Source: Chelativorans multitrophicus
Lineage (GTDB): Bacteria; Pseudomonadota; Alphaproteobacteria; Rhizobiales; Rhizobiaceae
Direction of reading: 5' to 3'
Length of the DNA: 64,000 nucleotides
NCBI RefSeq assembly: GCF_011317445.1
Contig: NZ_JAAAPL010000003.1
Span: forward strand, 62,001-126,000
The notes beneath the pieces are model-generated. The model was not told where the DNA came from. It ran no database searches and saw nothing but the letters and a program-made list of their open reading frames with translations. The position numbers were made by a program, and so were the translations under genes. This document shows, piece after piece, positions 3,404-8,750 of the stretch (its first letter is position 1; every line of letters begins with the position of its first letter).

Positions 3404-4729
3404 TCACGGGTCGAAGCTGCGCCTGTGGCGATGGGGACGCTCCGGGCGCGGACGCTTCCGGGTTTCAGCTTCGTGCTCTTTCTCGCGGTCGCGGGAGTGC
3501 GGATGATCGCCGTCGTCGCGGTCGATATCCTGGTAGCGGCTTACATCCTCACGCAGCCGCAGCAGCTCCTGCTGCGCCATCGCGCGTTGCGCTTGGATAT
3601 CTCGTTGCAGCGCCTGCCGTTCCTCAATCTGCTTGAAGATCAGCGCGTCCTTTTCCGTGCGGTCGCGGCGATAGGCTTCCAGCGCTTCCAGCTCGTTCTG
3701 CGTCCTGATCCTGGAATATTGCCCGGTCAGGCGATGCCAGATGCCGGAAAACCCCTTCGGCAATCGCTGCGCGCGTTGCCAGGTTTCGGCCTGCCATCGC
3801 TGTTCATGGGCGGCTGACATACGCTGACGCGCATCCTGGTGGCGGGCAGCCATTTCCGTCTTGCGGAACGCGAGAACGGCCTCGCGCTGTCTCGCCTGAC
3901 GCTCGGCCTCCTTGATGAAGGCTTCGAGCTTGCGGGTTATCCCGCCTGCGATCTCGATCTTGGTTTCCTCAACTGAAAGGAGCCGCTTCTGGTCGCCGAG
4001 CCTTGCTTCAAGGTCTTTGGTCTTCACCCCGGCATAGCGGGACAGCGAATAGACCTCCCCGCGATAATCGACGGCGACGAACCCGCGCCGGTCGCCTTTG
4101 GCGAGCCAGAAGCCGCGTTCCCTGAGCGCCCGCTCGAATGATGCCCTGTTGTCGGAAGCCTTCCAGCATTGCGCAAGGACCGTCTTAAGCTCGCGCGGAT
4201 CGAGTCCGGCGCGCTTTGCCTGTTGCCATTCTTCGCGGCTGAAATTCAGCGGATCGCGCAGGCTGGGGTCCTGTAGGCCGCGCGGCATCTCCCAGCCGTG
4301 TTTCAGGTAGAGGCTCCGGGACACATCCCGCAGCTTGACCTTGTAGTGGGGCAGATTGATTGCGCGCATGCGCTGCGAATCGATCCTCGACCAGACGACG
4401 TGAGCATGACGCCGCCCGTCCTTCTCGTGGAACACAATGGCGCGCGGCTGGCCTTCCAGGCCGAGCTTGCGCTCCATATCGGCTATAGCCCGCTCGAAAT
4501 CTTCAACCGCCGCCTGCGCATCCTGCGGCGGATTGAGGCTCGCCGAAAACAGGTAGTTCTTGCAGCGCGTCCCTTTAGCGATGGCGTCGGCTTCGCCGAA
4601 CGCCCCCGGAAGGTCGTCGCTGACAAAGCCGCGCACCTCATGCAGTTCCACATGGTCGTTGTCGCGTATCGCCAGCAGATAGCGGGCGAGCTGCGGACCG
4701 TCCCCGCGCTCTTTGGCCTTGAGGATCAT
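3404..4729 (-). CDS. Relaxase / mobilisation nuclease (HUH type)
   Basis: This 441-aa protein should nick one strand at oriT and stay attached to its 5' end during conjugal transfer. The N-terminal domain has a candidate catalytic tyrosine at residue 17 (LARYLL) and the metal site HEKDGRRHAH, with His101, His108 and His110. The C-terminal half (from about 250) is a long Arg/Gln/Glu-rich coiled coil ending in a His/Arg-rich tail, as in many MobP-type relaxases. Its ATG overlaps the mobC stop by 4 bases (ATGA), so the two are translationally coupled. No type IV secretion genes are visible, so the element is probably mobilisable rather than self-transmissible, or those genes lie to the left. Confidence 0.88.
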   Translation of the reverse strand: MILKAKERGDGPQLARYLLAIRDNDHVELHEVRGFVSDDLPGAFGEADAIAKGTRCKNYLFSASLNPPQDAQAAVEDFERAIADMERKLGLEGQPRAIVFHEKDGRRHAHVVWSRIDSQRMRAINLPHYKVKLRDVSRSLYLKHGWEMPRGLQDPSLRDPLNFSREEWQQAKRAGLDPRELKTVLAQCWKASDNRASFERALRERGFWLAKGDRRGFVAVDYRGEVYSLSRYAGVKTKDLEARLGDQKRLLSVEETKIEIAGGITRKLEAFIKEAERQARQREAVLAFRKTEMAARHQDARQRMSAAHEQRWQAETWQRAQRLPKGFSGIWHRLTGQYSRIRTQNELEALEAYRRDRTEKDALIFKQIEERQALQRDIQAQRAMAQQELLRLREDVSRYQDIDRDDGDHPHSRDREKEHEAETRKRPRPERPHRHRRSFDP

Positions 4730-5142
4730 GGCCCGTCCCCCGGAGACTTGCCGAGCGCGCGCAGCAGCTCATCCCGCAGCGCCGACACTTCGCGGCAGGC
4801 CTCCTTGAGTTCGGCTTCGGTTTCCGGCGTGACGGGCAGCGAGCCGGTGTTTACGGCCTTGGCAAGCTGGTTCAGGTTGGACGACAGCCGGGACTGGCCC
4901 AAGGCCCCCAGGACGCGCCCGAGGGCTTCATGATCCTTGATCGGGCTGTTACCTCGGCGCTTGCGGGGCGCGGTATCCTCCCCGAGCAGCCGTTCCCGGA
5001 TATAGGCCCCGAGCGCCTTGCCAGCCGCTTCGTTTTCCAGTCGCGCCCGTTCCGCTGCGGTCAGACGCAGTGAGAAGGGCGGCGGATGTTTGCCCGGCTG
5101 TTCGCCCGCCGATTTACGGAAATCACGGCGCAGGCTTGTCAT
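4726..5142 (-). CDS. mobC: MobC-like relaxosome protein
   Basis: This 138-aa basic protein carries the ribbon-helix-helix-like start typical of MobC (PFSLRLTAAERARLENEA, then GAYIRERLLG) and the conserved RLSSNLNQLAKAVNTG segment. MobC proteins bind oriT and open the strands for the relaxase. The gene overlaps the relaxase start by 4 bases. A perfect 7-bp inverted repeat just upstream (5154-5168) may be its binding site or part of oriT. Confidence 0.88.
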   Translation of the reverse strand: MTSLRRDFRKSAGEQPGKHPPPFSLRLTAAERARLENEAAGKALGAYIRERLLGEDTAPRKRRGNSPIKDHEALGRVLGALGQSRLSSNLNQLAKAVNTGSLPVTPETEAELKEACREVSALRDELLRALGKSPGDGP

Positions 5143-5522: not shown

Positions 5523-6131
5523 CTATGCAAGTCCAGTGCTTTGAGGTAATTCTGGGAACTTAAACTCCGAAGTGACCTCCAGCGTGCGGTCCTGGCGTGT
5601 CTCAATCCCCTCCAGCGGACGATGTGCGGCAAGCACCTTATCGCGCTCGCGGATCAATCCGGCAATTTTCTGCTCATAAGCGGCGAAGATGGCCGTCAGC
5701 CATCGATTGACGAGGTAGGACGGGCGCGGCATTTCGATATTGAAACGCGGCAATAGCGGGATCGTCCCTTCGGCATCCAGCCAGTCGTCACCGACCACCC
5801 ATTGGTTCACGGTGAATAGCCGCAAAATACGCCCATAAGCATCCACGCCCACGGCCGCAAGGTGGTGGATCGGACCATCGAGTCCCTGTGGGCGCAGAAA
5901 GCAATGGAAGTGGCCATGCTCAACCGTGCCTTCCTCGACGGGATGGCAATGGTAAAACCACTGCGCTCCGCTCGCGGGGTCGTAAACATCGCCGGGCGGA
6001 TAATGCTCCCATGCCGTAATCTGGCTCGTGTCGCGAAAGGTCTCGGTAAGCACATTGAGGCCGCCCTTGGCGAGCAGCCCCTCGCAGAAGACGATTTCGC
6101 GCAGCGCGACTTCTTCCGCGCTTTCAGCCAT
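5523..6131 (-). CDS. Unrecognised 202-aa protein, last gene of the sulfur operon
   Basis: The start was set at ATG 6131 (MAESAEEVALREIVFCEG) because the longer frame upstream is low-complexity Pro/Arg shadow sequence of the preceding gene. The protein has no signal peptide or membrane segment. Conspicuous segments are a His/Tyr-rich block (QWFYHCHPVEEGTVEHGHFH), which could bind metal, followed by FLRPQGLDGPIHHLAAVGVD and NQWVVGDDWLDAEG. I do not recognise the family. It overlaps the 3' end of the Cys/Pro-repeat gene by 8 bases, so it is translationally coupled to the rhodanese-YeeE operon and probably acts in the same process. A role in sulfur handling is inferred from position only. Confidence 0.75.
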   Translation of the reverse strand: MAESAEEVALREIVFCEGLLAKGGLNVLTETFRDTSQITAWEHYPPGDVYDPASGAQWFYHCHPVEEGTVEHGHFHCFLRPQGLDGPIHHLAAVGVDAYGRILRLFTVNQWVVGDDWLDAEGTIPLLPRFNIEMPRPSYLVNRWLTAIFAAYEQKIAGLIRERDKVLAAHRPLEGIETRQDRTLEVTSEFKFPELPQSTGLA

Positions 6132-6519
6132 TTCCTTGGCTCGGCAGTGGTGCTGGGGGCGGAGGAGGCGGAAGCTTCTTCTTCGCCTCGGCCGGAAGCG
6201 GGGCCGGTGGAGGGGGCGGAGCAAGCTTTGTGGGCTGGGCGCTTGGCGTTGCGGGAGGCGGCGGAGGAGCCAGCTTCGGCGCAGCCGCGGAGCATGGTGC
6301 ACCAGCCGCGCATGGAGCCGCCCGGGCAGCGGCCGGGGCCGAGACAGGAGCACCGGCGGCACATGGAGCGGCTGCCGCGCATGGTGCGGCAGAAGCAGGC
6401 GCGGAAGCGGCCGGGATCTCGGCGCGCGGCACCGGATGCGAATAATGATCGACAGCGATACCGGCGGTTGCCGCGGCGAGCGCCGTGCCGAAGAGGAATG
6501 TATTGCGAGCGGTGCTCAT
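6124..6519 (-). CDS. Membrane-anchored Ala/Pro-rich protein with APC repeats
   Basis: This 131-aa protein starts with a short signal or anchor helix (FLFGTALAAATAGIAV). An Ala-rich region follows with four cysteines, each in an Ala-Pro-Cys context (two close pairs), and then three copies of a Lys-Leu-(Ala)-polyproline block with 5, 5 and 6 prolines. The ATG overlaps the YeeE stop codon (ATGA), and its 3' end overlaps the next gene by 8 bases. Such composition suggests an extended periplasmic tether. Cysteines displayed between a periplasmic rhodanese and a sulfur-compound transporter could carry sulfane sulfur, but that is inference. Low complexity makes homology searching hard. Confidence 0.75.
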   Translation of the reverse strand: MSTARNTFLFGTALAAATAGIAVDHYSHPVPRAEIPAASAPASAAPCAAAAPCAAGAPVSAPAAARAAPCAAGAPCSAAAPKLAPPPPPATPSAQPTKLAPPPPPAPLPAEAKKKLPPPPPPAPLPSQGNG

Positions 6520-7730
6520 TTTTTCACGAATCCGTCGAGACCGAAAATCGGGCGAGCCCAAATGCCGACAAGGGATCCTACAAAAGCGGCTGCAAACCAC
6601 AGCCATCCGTGCAGGCTGCCCGATGCAATTCCGGAGAAGAGCGCGCCAATATTGCAACCGAAGGAGAGCCGCGCGCCGTATCCCATGAGCAGGCCGCCTA
6701 CGACCGCGGCAAGAAAGGAGCCGAGCGGGATGTTCGCCTTGGGTGCGAACTTGCCAGAGAGGCTGGCGGCAAGCGCGGCCCCCAGAATAATGCCGAAGTT
6801 CATGACCGATGTGACGTCGGCGAGCACGCTTGACTGTAGCGCCGACTGCGGACCAGGCCAGTTCCAAAACGCCCAGCTCTCGACCGGCACGCCAACCGCT
6901 TGGGCAATCTTGGCGCCCCACAAGCCGAAGCCGAAGGTCACGGACCAGGGATGGCCGGCAAGCAGCAGCGTGGCGATGTTGAGCAACGCCAAAAGCAGCC
7001 CCGCCCCGACCAGCGGCCATGGGCCGTAGAGGATCCAGCTCCAGCCCGGGCGCGAGGGCGCGGGCTCGTGTTCAATGTCGCCATGCGCGCGCCGCTCAAT
7101 CAGCAGCGTCAACAGGGCGACCACGCCGAGCGCGGCAAGAGTGGCGAGGATCGCCGTACCAGCGCCAAGCTGCCGGCCGAGGTCGATGGTCCCGTAGGAG
7201 GGTAACTCCAACCACCAGGGCAGATGGGCCGTACCGATCAGCGCGCCGACGATGAAGAAGATCAACGTCACCAGCATGCGCGAGGAGCCGCCGCCCACCG
7301 TGAACAAGGTGCCGGAGCCGCAGCCCCCACCGAGCTGCATACCCAAGCCGAACATGGATGCGCCCACCAGCACGGAAACACCAACCGGCGCCAGCGCGCC
7401 GACGAGTGGCTGGCCACCGAGATTGCCTGCCGATAGCAGTGGAATCATCACCGACGCGGCCACGCCAATCATCAGCATCTGTGCGCGGACGCCGCGTCCG
7501 CGTCGCTCCACAACCATACGGCGCCATCCGCCGGTGAACCCGAAAGAACCATGATAGAGGGCAGTGCCCAATAGGCCGCCTACTAGGAACAGGGCCGCCT
7601 GCCGAAGGTCAATCAGCTGCGCAATGGCAAGGAAGCCGACCAGCATCGCGCCGCCCGCAATCAAAGCAGGCATACGATCAATCACTGCCGGCGGCAGGTA
7701 TTTGGGCCGATCAAAAGAGATGTCAGTCAT
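6516..7730 (-). CDS. YeeE/YedE (TsuA-like) sulfur-compound transporter
   Basis: This 404-aa polytopic inner-membrane protein has about ten hydrophobic segments. It carries the two family signature loops with conserved cysteines, GGGCGSGTLF and RLSFGCNIGALFSG, which in the characterised thiosulfate transporter TsuA pass thiosulfate through the membrane. ATG 7730 (MTDISFDRPKYLPP) was chosen because a GGA element sits about 7 bases upstream; ATG 7736 is an alternative. The gene lies after a secreted rhodanese and is coupled to two small downstream genes. Likely role: uptake of thiosulfate or another sulfane-sulfur species. The exact substrate cannot be read from the sequence. Confidence 0.88.
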   Translation of the reverse strand: MTDISFDRPKYLPPAVIDRMPALIAGGAMLVGFLAIAQLIDLRQAALFLVGGLLGTALYHGSFGFTGGWRRMVVERRGRGVRAQMLMIGVAASVMIPLLSAGNLGGQPLVGALAPVGVSVLVGASMFGLGMQLGGGCGSGTLFTVGGGSSRMLVTLIFFIVGALIGTAHLPWWLELPSYGTIDLGRQLGAGTAILATLAALGVVALLTLLIERRAHGDIEHEPAPSRPGWSWILYGPWPLVGAGLLLALLNIATLLLAGHPWSVTFGFGLWGAKIAQAVGVPVESWAFWNWPGPQSALQSSVLADVTSVMNFGIILGAALAASLSGKFAPKANIPLGSFLAAVVGGLLMGYGARLSFGCNIGALFSGIASGSLHGWLWFAAAFVGSLVGIWARPIFGLDGFVKK

Positions 7731-7764
7731 AGTCATTCCGACCGGTTCTAGTGGCGCCACTCAA

Positions 7765-7800
7765 ACGACGAATGCCCGGAGGCTTCCGGACATTCGTCGT
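7765..7800 (-). terminator. Strong hairpin between the rhodanese and yeeE genes (attenuator or partial terminator)
   Basis: ACGACGAATG (7765-7774) pairs with CATTCGTCGT (7791-7800). After a single mismatch, the inner stem CCGGA/TCCGG closes on a 4-base loop. On the minus strand TTTGAG follows. It sits in the 108-base gap after the rhodanese stop, so it may terminate part of the transcription or protect the rhodanese mRNA. Confidence 0.55.
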
Positions 7801-7838
7801 GATCTTCTTGCCCCGAAACGGGCCTTGGTGTTCTGCGA

Positions 7839-8750
7839 TCAGCTGCCCGACTTGTTTTCGACCGGGCGTGCCGGATCAGCGGTCCACTCGGCCATTGAAC
7901 CGTCATACATGCTGGTATTCTTATTGCCCAGCACCTCGGAAAGGCCGAACCAGGCGACCGACGCCCAATGGCCGGTATTGCAAAAGGCAATGTTCTTTTC
8001 GTCCGCGCCCAAGCCGACGGCCTCGGTCAGCGCCTTCACCGTCTCCGGACGGGCGAAGAGCGCGTGTTCCGCGCTGTAGAGCTTGGAATGCTCGATATTC
8101 AGAGAACCCGGCAATGTTCCGTAAGAAGCCACGACGGGGCTTTTCGACTTGCCTTCGTACTGCTCGGCCGGACGCCCGTCGACCAACTTCACGCCAGACT
8201 TCAGAGCCTCTGCAACTTCGTCGGTCGTGGCGAGCAGTTCATCGCGAGTCTCCGGGGTGAACTCGGCCAGCTCTGGCTTGGCCGGTTCAGTTGATCGGGG
8301 GCCGCCAGCGGCATCGTACTGACGCCAGCCGCCATCAAGGATCGATACTTCGTCATGTCCAAGATACTTGAACGTCCAGTAGACGCGGGTCGCCCCTCCA
8401 ATCTCGCTGGAGTCGGTACCCCAAGGCACGATTACGACATGATCGTCATTGTCGATGCCGAGATCCGCGATCAGTTTGGTAATCTGCTCCACTGGGGGCA
8501 GCATGCCCGGAACCCCGTTCAGTTCCGTGCGCCAACCCGCCGTGGCATAAGGCGCAACGACCGCACCTTCGATGTACGGCTTTTCGCCGAGATCAGTATC
8601 CGCAACATTGTCGCGGATATCGAGCAGGACGATGTTTTCCTTGCCGGCATTCGCCTTTACCCATTCGGCATCCACCAACGGGCGGATCTCGTCCGCAAAC
8701 GCGACCCCCGAGAGAATGGACAGCAGAAACGCCAAAGAAACTACGCGCAT
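7839..8750 (-). CDS. Periplasmic tandem-rhodanese sulfurtransferase
   Basis: This 303-aa protein has a cleavable signal peptide (MRVVSLAFLLSILSGVAFA) and two rhodanese domains (about 25-150 and 170-300). The C-terminal domain has the active-site loop FCNTGHWAS with Cys257; the N-terminal domain lacks the cysteine, as usual for tandem rhodaneses. It would transfer sulfane sulfur from thiosulfate or a related donor in the periplasm. As first gene of the operon with YeeE and the Cys-repeat protein, it probably prepares or accepts the sulfur species moved by the transporter. A small hairpin lies in its 5' leader (8775-8792). Confidence 0.88.
   Translation of the reverse strand: MRVVSLAFLLSILSGVAFADEIRPLVDAEWVKANAGKENIVLLDIRDNVADTDLGEKPYIEGAVVAPYATAGWRTELNGVPGMLPPVEQITKLIADLGIDNDDHVVIVPWGTDSSEIGGATRVYWTFKYLGHDEVSILDGGWRQYDAAGGPRSTEPAKPELAEFTPETRDELLATTDEVAEALKSGVKLVDGRPAEQYEGKSKSPVVASYGTLPGSLNIEHSKLYSAEHALFARPETVKALTEAVGLGADEKNIAFCNTGHWASVAWFGLSEVLGNKNTSMYDGSMAEWTADPARPVENKSGS

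Follow-up and report, generated by a model that had tools for sequence, protein, structure and literature searches.

An operon of Chelativorans multitrophicus joining a rhodanese-YeeE pair, a Pro-Cys repeat protein and a DUF6969 protein, with a possible role in extracytoplasmic sulfur handling

We analyzed a stretch of 64,000 nucleotides (nt) from Chelativorans multitrophicus (contig NZ_JAAAPL010000003.1, positions 62,001 to 126,000; the window in the following). Four genes on its - strand (8750-5523) encode, in this order, a rhodanese, a YeeE-type transporter, a Pro-Cys protein of 131 amino acids (aa), here named APC, and a protein of the family DUF6969. Our best explanation, offered tentatively, is that this operon is the meeting point of two modules, the first consisting of rhodanese, YeeE and a Pro-Cys (P-C) protein and the second of DUF6969 and exported Cys-repeat proteins. 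It is held jointly with an equally tentative account of function, in which tethered cysteines would hand sulfane sulfur from the rhodanese to YeeE and DUF6969 would prepare the repeat protein ahead of its export. The import of sulfur into the cytoplasm has been called poorly understood (PMC11582611). A conserved anchored Cys protein beside an exported rhodanese and YeeE is a concrete candidate for periplasmic sulfane-sulfur delivery to YeeE-type transporters, and DUF6969 gains a testable role as partner of exported Cys-repeat proteins. As pSymB of Sinorhizobium meliloti 1021 carries the complete set of four genes (L273), both roles are accessible to experiment in a tractable symbiont of plants. 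Many bacteria have parts of this gene set, which suggests a so far undescribed handling of reactive sulfur, or perhaps of metal, on the outer side of the cell membrane. The features of the operon are as follows.

7839-8750, - strand: exported tandem rhodanese, 303 aa, signal-like N-terminus (PF00581; Cys257 in CNTGHWA)
7766-7799, - strand: intergenic RNA hairpin with a 15-pair stem in the gap between rhodanese and YeeE (fold z -3.25)
about 6516-7736, - strand: YeeE/YedE-type sulfur transporter (Sulf_transp, PF04143), about 406 aa
6124-6519, - strand: APC, 131 aa; hydrophobic segment at the N-terminus, D-H, A-P-C motif (four copies), polyproline (three blocks)
5523-6131, - strand: His-rich DUF6969 protein, 202 aa (PF22308)

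The operon and its Pro-Cys protein

The layout given in a preliminary description of this DNA was confirmed, from the tandem rhodanese with signal peptide and Cys257, the hairpin and YeeE to the four APC motifs, the three polyproline blocks and the His-rich 202-aa protein. The start of the APC gene overlaps the end of the YeeE gene by ATGA (4 bases), and the DUF6969 gene overlaps the APC gene by 8 bases. A search with the window DUF6969 protein across genome contigs confirmed 212 relatives, and the 80 best were analyzed further. In 71 of these 80 nearest relatives, which represent one branch only, rhodanese, YeeE, P-C protein and DUF6969 follow one another in this order; six of the remaining nine are truncated where a contig ends, and the other three (L081, L088, L096) deviate. 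The same 4-base overlap starts the P-C protein in 71 of 72 extracted orthologues, and both counts speak against a chance arrangement.

The window rhodanese is a member of the Rhodanese family (PF00581; E 2.3e-21, 76.6 bits at a cut-off of 22.2), and thiosulfate sulfurtransferases are among its PDB relatives. Its catalytic-type Cys257, located in CNTGHWA, is kept in 72/72 aligned sequences. YeeE belongs to the Sulf_transp (YeeE/YedE) family (PF04143; E 3.8e-76, 257 bits at a cut-off of 27) and holds two cysteines only, C140 and C362 (numbering of window:6516-7739), which are kept in 72/73 and 73/73 aligned sequences. TsuA structures are distant relatives of this protein. By alignment range, C362 corresponds to TsuA C293, the first cysteine of the sulfur relay (PMC11073785), and C140 could be matched to TsuA C91 by motif only. 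The window protein stays far below the TsuA models of NCBIfam (61.9 bits vs 400 and 43.6 bits vs 645) and has two instead of the three conserved cysteines that TsuA and SoxT have (PMC11582611).

For APC, searches of Pfam and NCBIfam gave no match with an E value of 1 or below, and thus no bufferin family or other known precursor family in these collections. Among 73 P-C orthologues (the 72 extracted ones and the window protein), all 485 cysteines are directly preceded by Pro, so that the Cys repeats are conserved in orthologues, as the preliminary description had demanded as a test. The number of cysteines per protein varies from 2 to 17 and their spacing from 5 to 24 residues, six being the commonest (245 of 412 intervals). 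Four positions of the N-terminal hydrophobic segment (N, L, F and D) are invariant. Judged from this segment, APC would be tethered to the membrane, with a cleavable signal peptide as the other possibility. Two or more runs of at least three Pro are present in 50 of the 73 proteins; no such run occurs in the other 23, of which 21 carry 9-17 cysteines. The stiff polyproline arm proposed earlier is therefore not a general feature.

A low-complexity Ala/Pro/Cys protein of this kind might be a slippage-prone linker without chemistry of its own, carried along in a mobile operon. The repeats are indeed G+C-rich, the operon lies beside genes that we take to be relaxase-like, and DUF6969 is found in 0 of 16 same-family genomes listed. 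We consider this explanation very improbable, as not only the strict Pro-Cys pairing but also the [ASNTG]-P-X-[ASG]-A units, in which X is Cys in 469 of 550 cases, the four invariant positions in 73 proteins and the place held by the gene in 71/80 loci argue against it.

The tie between the P-C protein and the rhodanese-YeeE pair was analyzed in a class sample of 385 genomes. YeeE matches at E <= 1e-30 were obtained in 47 genomes at 51 places, 50 of which were examined. A rhodanese is encoded directly upstream of YeeE on the same strand in 13 genomes, and in 11 of these 13 the gene after YeeE encodes a small anchored P-C protein (the window, L136, L147, L252, L254, L263, L265, G216 with the contig ends L138 and L275, L280, L281 and L286; at L147 it lies 111 bp away and was counted by eye). 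In contrast, at the 35 YeeE loci that lack a rhodanese directly upstream, a protein with a hydrophobic segment and at least two P-C was never found in the next 100 bp (0/35; Fisher 3e-9); two of the 35, L268 and L292, have a nearby rhodanese on the opposite strand. If one P-C is taken as sufficient, the count rises to 2/35 (Fisher 2e-7), both (L168, L177) being exported-looking proteins of another kind with 163-164 aa.

Minimal P-C proteins of 52-71 aa, which carry one or two P-C motifs in a single MPCGLGG or CAPCGAPC stretch, occur at L263, L265, L280, L281 and L286, all in genomes without DUF6969. Of 13 database relatives, 11 retain MPCGLGG. The loci L263 and L265 come from 1.2-Mb genomes. 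DUF6969 is present in 6/6 genomes with repeat forms of at least four motifs, in four of them beside the unit and in two elsewhere (G267, G247), and in 0/5 genomes with minimal forms (Fisher 0.002, in a small sample uncorrected for kinship).

The wide range in number and spacing of the cysteines would also be expected if the P-C protein were a redox or stress sink, whose tethered cysteines form disulfides or glutathione adducts and so shield the cysteines of rhodanese and YeeE from oxidation, number and arrangement being of little importance. This is improbable in our view. The placing of every cysteine in P-C would be needless for a general thiol sink, and single-motif versions persist with MPCGLGG fixed in the 11 of 13 relatives.

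DUF6969 and its neighbourhoods

The 202-aa protein had been thought to belong to no known family. It is a member of PF22308, DUF6969 (E 2.2e-69; 233.5 bits at a cut-off of 27), and the match spans residues 9-191 and profile positions 3-200 of 201. No other Pfam family was matched by the window protein, which is thus not an MNIO. The family is named as one of unknown function, and the name DUF6969 was not found in the literature examined. Invariant positions in 98 aligned sequences from both branches include W41, D51, Y60, H61, H63, E71, H72, H74, H76, R80, H90, N142, W144 and R163, among them six His. In the AlphaFold2 model, which is confident (mean pLDDT 93.5), these His sit on or beside three successive strands and, from the strand pairing, probably share one face. 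The model gave no PDB fold match with E <= 0.001 and no VIA Z above 3.4. Binding of a metal by the invariant His is probable, and because no signal peptide is evident, the protein is probably cytoplasmic. With one distant member as query, 5102 database proteins were found.

DUF6969 occurs in 90 of the 385 class-sample genomes and in 20 of 398 phylum-sample genomes. For its neighbourhoods beyond the operon branch, 91 distant loci (L112-L202) were taken, together with 49 control regions (944 kb) from genomes of the same sample. Dense P-C open reading frames (ORFs), defined by four or more P-C in 60 residues, lie within 2.5 kb of DUF6969 in 42/91 loci, three of them operon-type (L136, L138, L147), compared to 0/49 controls (Fisher 2e-10). 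The association holds when the operon-type loci are removed (39/87; Fisher 5e-10). Close to DUF6969 51 such ORFs were counted in 428 kb, farther out in the same loci 4 in 763 kb, and in the controls 0 in 944 kb. In other classes an exported Cys-repeat protein was found in four of seven DUF6969 loci (L306, L310, L311, L312; the L307 locus is truncated at the end of its contig). At L306, L310 and L312 the protein beside DUF6969 combines N-P-C repeats with a SoxA/TsdA-type cytochrome c domain that scores above its Pfam cut-off, and L311 has a Cys-repeat peptide of another kind. In Burkholderia glumae (plasmid NZ_CP100304; L304, 5577-6669) an exported KCGAK/KCAPK Cys-repeat peptide is directly followed by DUF6969, with KCGAK peptide and DUF6969 100 bp apart; the cluster is annotated with a sigma-70 family factor, an MFS transporter and arsenosugar-type glycosyltransferases.

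Among the 91 loci, in which alone the following five kinds of neighbour were counted, an FGE-sulfatase-like protein is found near DUF6969 in 28 (median distance 21 bp), cytochrome c in 28, cytochrome P460 in 23, DUF2336 in 19 and the parts of a TAXI-TRAP transporter in 15 each. A recurrent unit around DUF6969 consists of the FGE-sulfatase-like protein, cytochrome c, P460, often with N-P-C repeats, and the TAXI-TRAP transporter. Sulf_transp is near DUF6969 in 8/91 loci, namely four operon-type loci and L168, L177, L182 and L184. DUF6969 therefore partners Cys-repeat proteins rather than the sulfur pair. The second test of the preliminary description, by which the two small genes should not occur without YeeE/rhodanese neighbours, is passed in part only: the small anchored P-C protein follows the rhodanese-YeeE pairs, but DUF6969 and P-C repeat proteins in general are mostly found without YeeE.

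A proposed sulfur relay and a rival metal-buffer reading

What we observed is the gene order, the conservation of the cysteines, the co-occurrence of the repeat form with DUF6969 (in a small sample) and the recurrence of DUF6969 beside exported Cys-repeat proteins. The topology, the direction and chemistry of a sulfur transfer and the role of DUF6969 are our inference. The periplasmic rhodanese would form a persulfide on Cys257, and the membrane-tethered P-C protein would accept this sulfur on one of many equivalent cysteines and present it to the outward-facing C362 of YeeE, which would pass it inward. With more P-C motifs, the single carrier could become a store of bound sulfur. The cytoplasmic DUF6969 would act on Cys-repeat proteins before their export, most likely through cysteine modification or by holding the cysteines in a defined state. 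The preliminary description had already seen in the P-C protein a sulfur carrier between rhodanese and transporter. Its position as third gene of the rhodanese-YeeE pairs in 11/13 genomes and the conserved cysteines of all three proteins speak for this, while the transfer itself is only proposed. It is mainly because of this fixed trio and its conserved cysteines that sulfur is ranked first.

The main rival is a metal buffer, suggested by the likeness to bufferin clusters and by the Cys/His-rich peptides. The Cys-repeat proteins would bind periplasmic copper or another soft metal as bufferins do, DUF6969 would be a metal-dependent maturase or a metal-handling partner, and YeeE and rhodanese would supply or protect thiols. 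Bufferins are modified by MNIO and chelate copper, and as here exported Cys-rich proteins are encoded beside a conserved enzyme gene (PMC12452194). DUF6969 pairs with varied exported Cys-repeat peptides (KCGAK/KCAPK, GACGG, CCAAEG), HKH ends most minimal P-C proteins, and one MNIO gene (PF05114) was noticed in passing near such a locus (L151, 2760-3638); it lies some 4 kb away from DUF6969, and a His/Cys-rich peptide that looks exported is encoded in between. In 3 of the 80 near loci the operon is flanked by a protein with GMTCASC motifs that resembles a heavy-metal P-type ATPase (e.g., L079, 7853-10348). However, DUF6969 is no MNIO, the repeats here are mainly P-C, and APC falls into no bufferin or other Pfam family. 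Moreover, in each of the 11 class-sample cases the small anchored P-C protein comes after a rhodanese-YeeE pair, and no copper gene family was seen among the annotated distant flank clusters, many clusters being unannotated. Taken together, we regard a metal buffer as rather unlikely.

The proposed sulfur relay was also compared with known systems. The transporter family PF04143 is common to the window and to YeeE/TsuA with YeeD, where a small Cys protein partner likewise handles sulfur (PMC11073785). YeeD, however, is a CPxP protein of the TusA family located at the cytoplasmic face, whereas the partners in the window are an anchored, presumably periplasmic P-C protein and an exported rhodanese. 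The import of zero-valent sulfur by YedE1E2 depends on two conserved cysteines (PMC10812762), the number also present in the window YeeE, but YedE1E2 is formed by two short proteins. SoxT is a YeeE-like protein from an alphaproteobacterium (PMC11582611). The available parts of the YedE1E2 and SoxT accounts describe no tethered P-C protein or DUF6969 (PMC10812762, PMC11582611). ExtH (NF040901), the rhodanese of a selenite/tellurite reduction operon, was rejected as identity of the window rhodanese, which reaches 76.1 bits over residues 22-199, far below the NCBIfam cut-off of 200.

Several observations weigh against the two-module explanation and the sulfur relay. Within the operon branch, L088 has rhodanese, P-C protein and DUF6969 without YeeE, and L081 and L096 have DUF6969 without the other operon genes in place. 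Of the two rhodanese-YeeE units outside the 11, L284 has a small anchored protein whose one cysteine is outside P-C, and at L253 no P-C protein was seen; their genomes (G053 and G057 for the two loci) nevertheless hold DUF6969. The sample behind the link between repeat form and DUF6969 is small. In 49 of the 91 distant loci no dense P-C ORF was found within 2.5 kb. For four of these (L134, L137, L140, L157) an exported Cys-repeat protein of another kind, adjacent to DUF6969 or in its vicinity, was picked by eye from a looser scan that also rings 150 times in the controls. The SoxA/TsdA-like domains reach only 27-31 bits vs the NCBIfam SoxA cut-off of 110, one DUF6969 gene lies within an annotated arsenosugar cluster, and the commoner neighbours (FGE-type, cytochrome c, P460, DUF2336, TRAP) are not sulfur-specific. 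The link to Sulf_transp is weak (8/91 vs 0/49; Fisher 0.05) and drops to 4/87 without operon-type loci (Fisher 0.30), two of the four coming from one genus. An exported single-domain rhodanese is near DUF6969 in 7/91 loci vs 2/49 controls (Fisher 0.49). The sulfur link of DUF6969 outside the operon is suggestive only.

A wider proposal is conceivable, if doubtful. DUF6969 might be a new class of metal-dependent proteins with a fold unmatched in the PDB, a counterpart of MNIO that readies exported Cys-repeat proteins (P-C, KCGAK, GACGG, CCAAEG) in the cytoplasm. The finished repeats might then be extracytoplasmic persulfide carriers, for YeeE-rhodanese units here and for SoxA/TsdA-type and P460 cytochromes elsewhere.

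Hairpin, probable mobility and reduced versions of the operon

The hairpin between rhodanese and YeeE (about 7799-7766) has 15 paired positions without gaps. The 106-nt stretch folds at -44.7 kcal/mol, and 1 of 200 shuffles is as good (z -3.25). In the 130 nt that follow the end of the rhodanese gene, a stem of at least 9 pairs was found for 59 of 70 relatives, compared to 51 of 216 control stretches inside YeeE genes. No convincing match was obtained in Rfam. The letters of the stem vary among relatives, and in the examples listed pairing is kept. Because the letters differ while pairing is kept, the hairpin is probably an element for RNA processing or differential expression.

Directly downstream of the operon (3404-5142, - strand) the window encodes a 441-aa and a 138-aa protein. 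From reading of their sequences we take them to be relaxase-like and MobC-like, respectively, which suggests a mobile element. Relatives from Chelativorans and Sinorhizobium are 79-80% identical. Together with the absence of DUF6969 from the 16 same-family genomes listed and the relaxase-like neighbours, this makes horizontal acquisition of the operon likely.

S. meliloti replicons carry both whole and reduced versions. Beside the operon on pSymB, strain 1021 carries on pSymA (L272) P-C protein and DUF6969 as an orphan pair, where 19 residues are left of YeeE. Orphan pairs with only 19 YeeE residues are found on seven S. meliloti replicons (L272, L274, L295, L297, L298, L302, L303). The DUF6969 match is split in two pieces in four of these seven (L297, L298, L302, L303) and unbroken in 5/5 whole operons (L273, L296, L299, L300, L301). 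L142 looks decayed: YeeE is in two pieces and DUF6969 is kept, and neither a P-C protein nor a rhodanese was found there.

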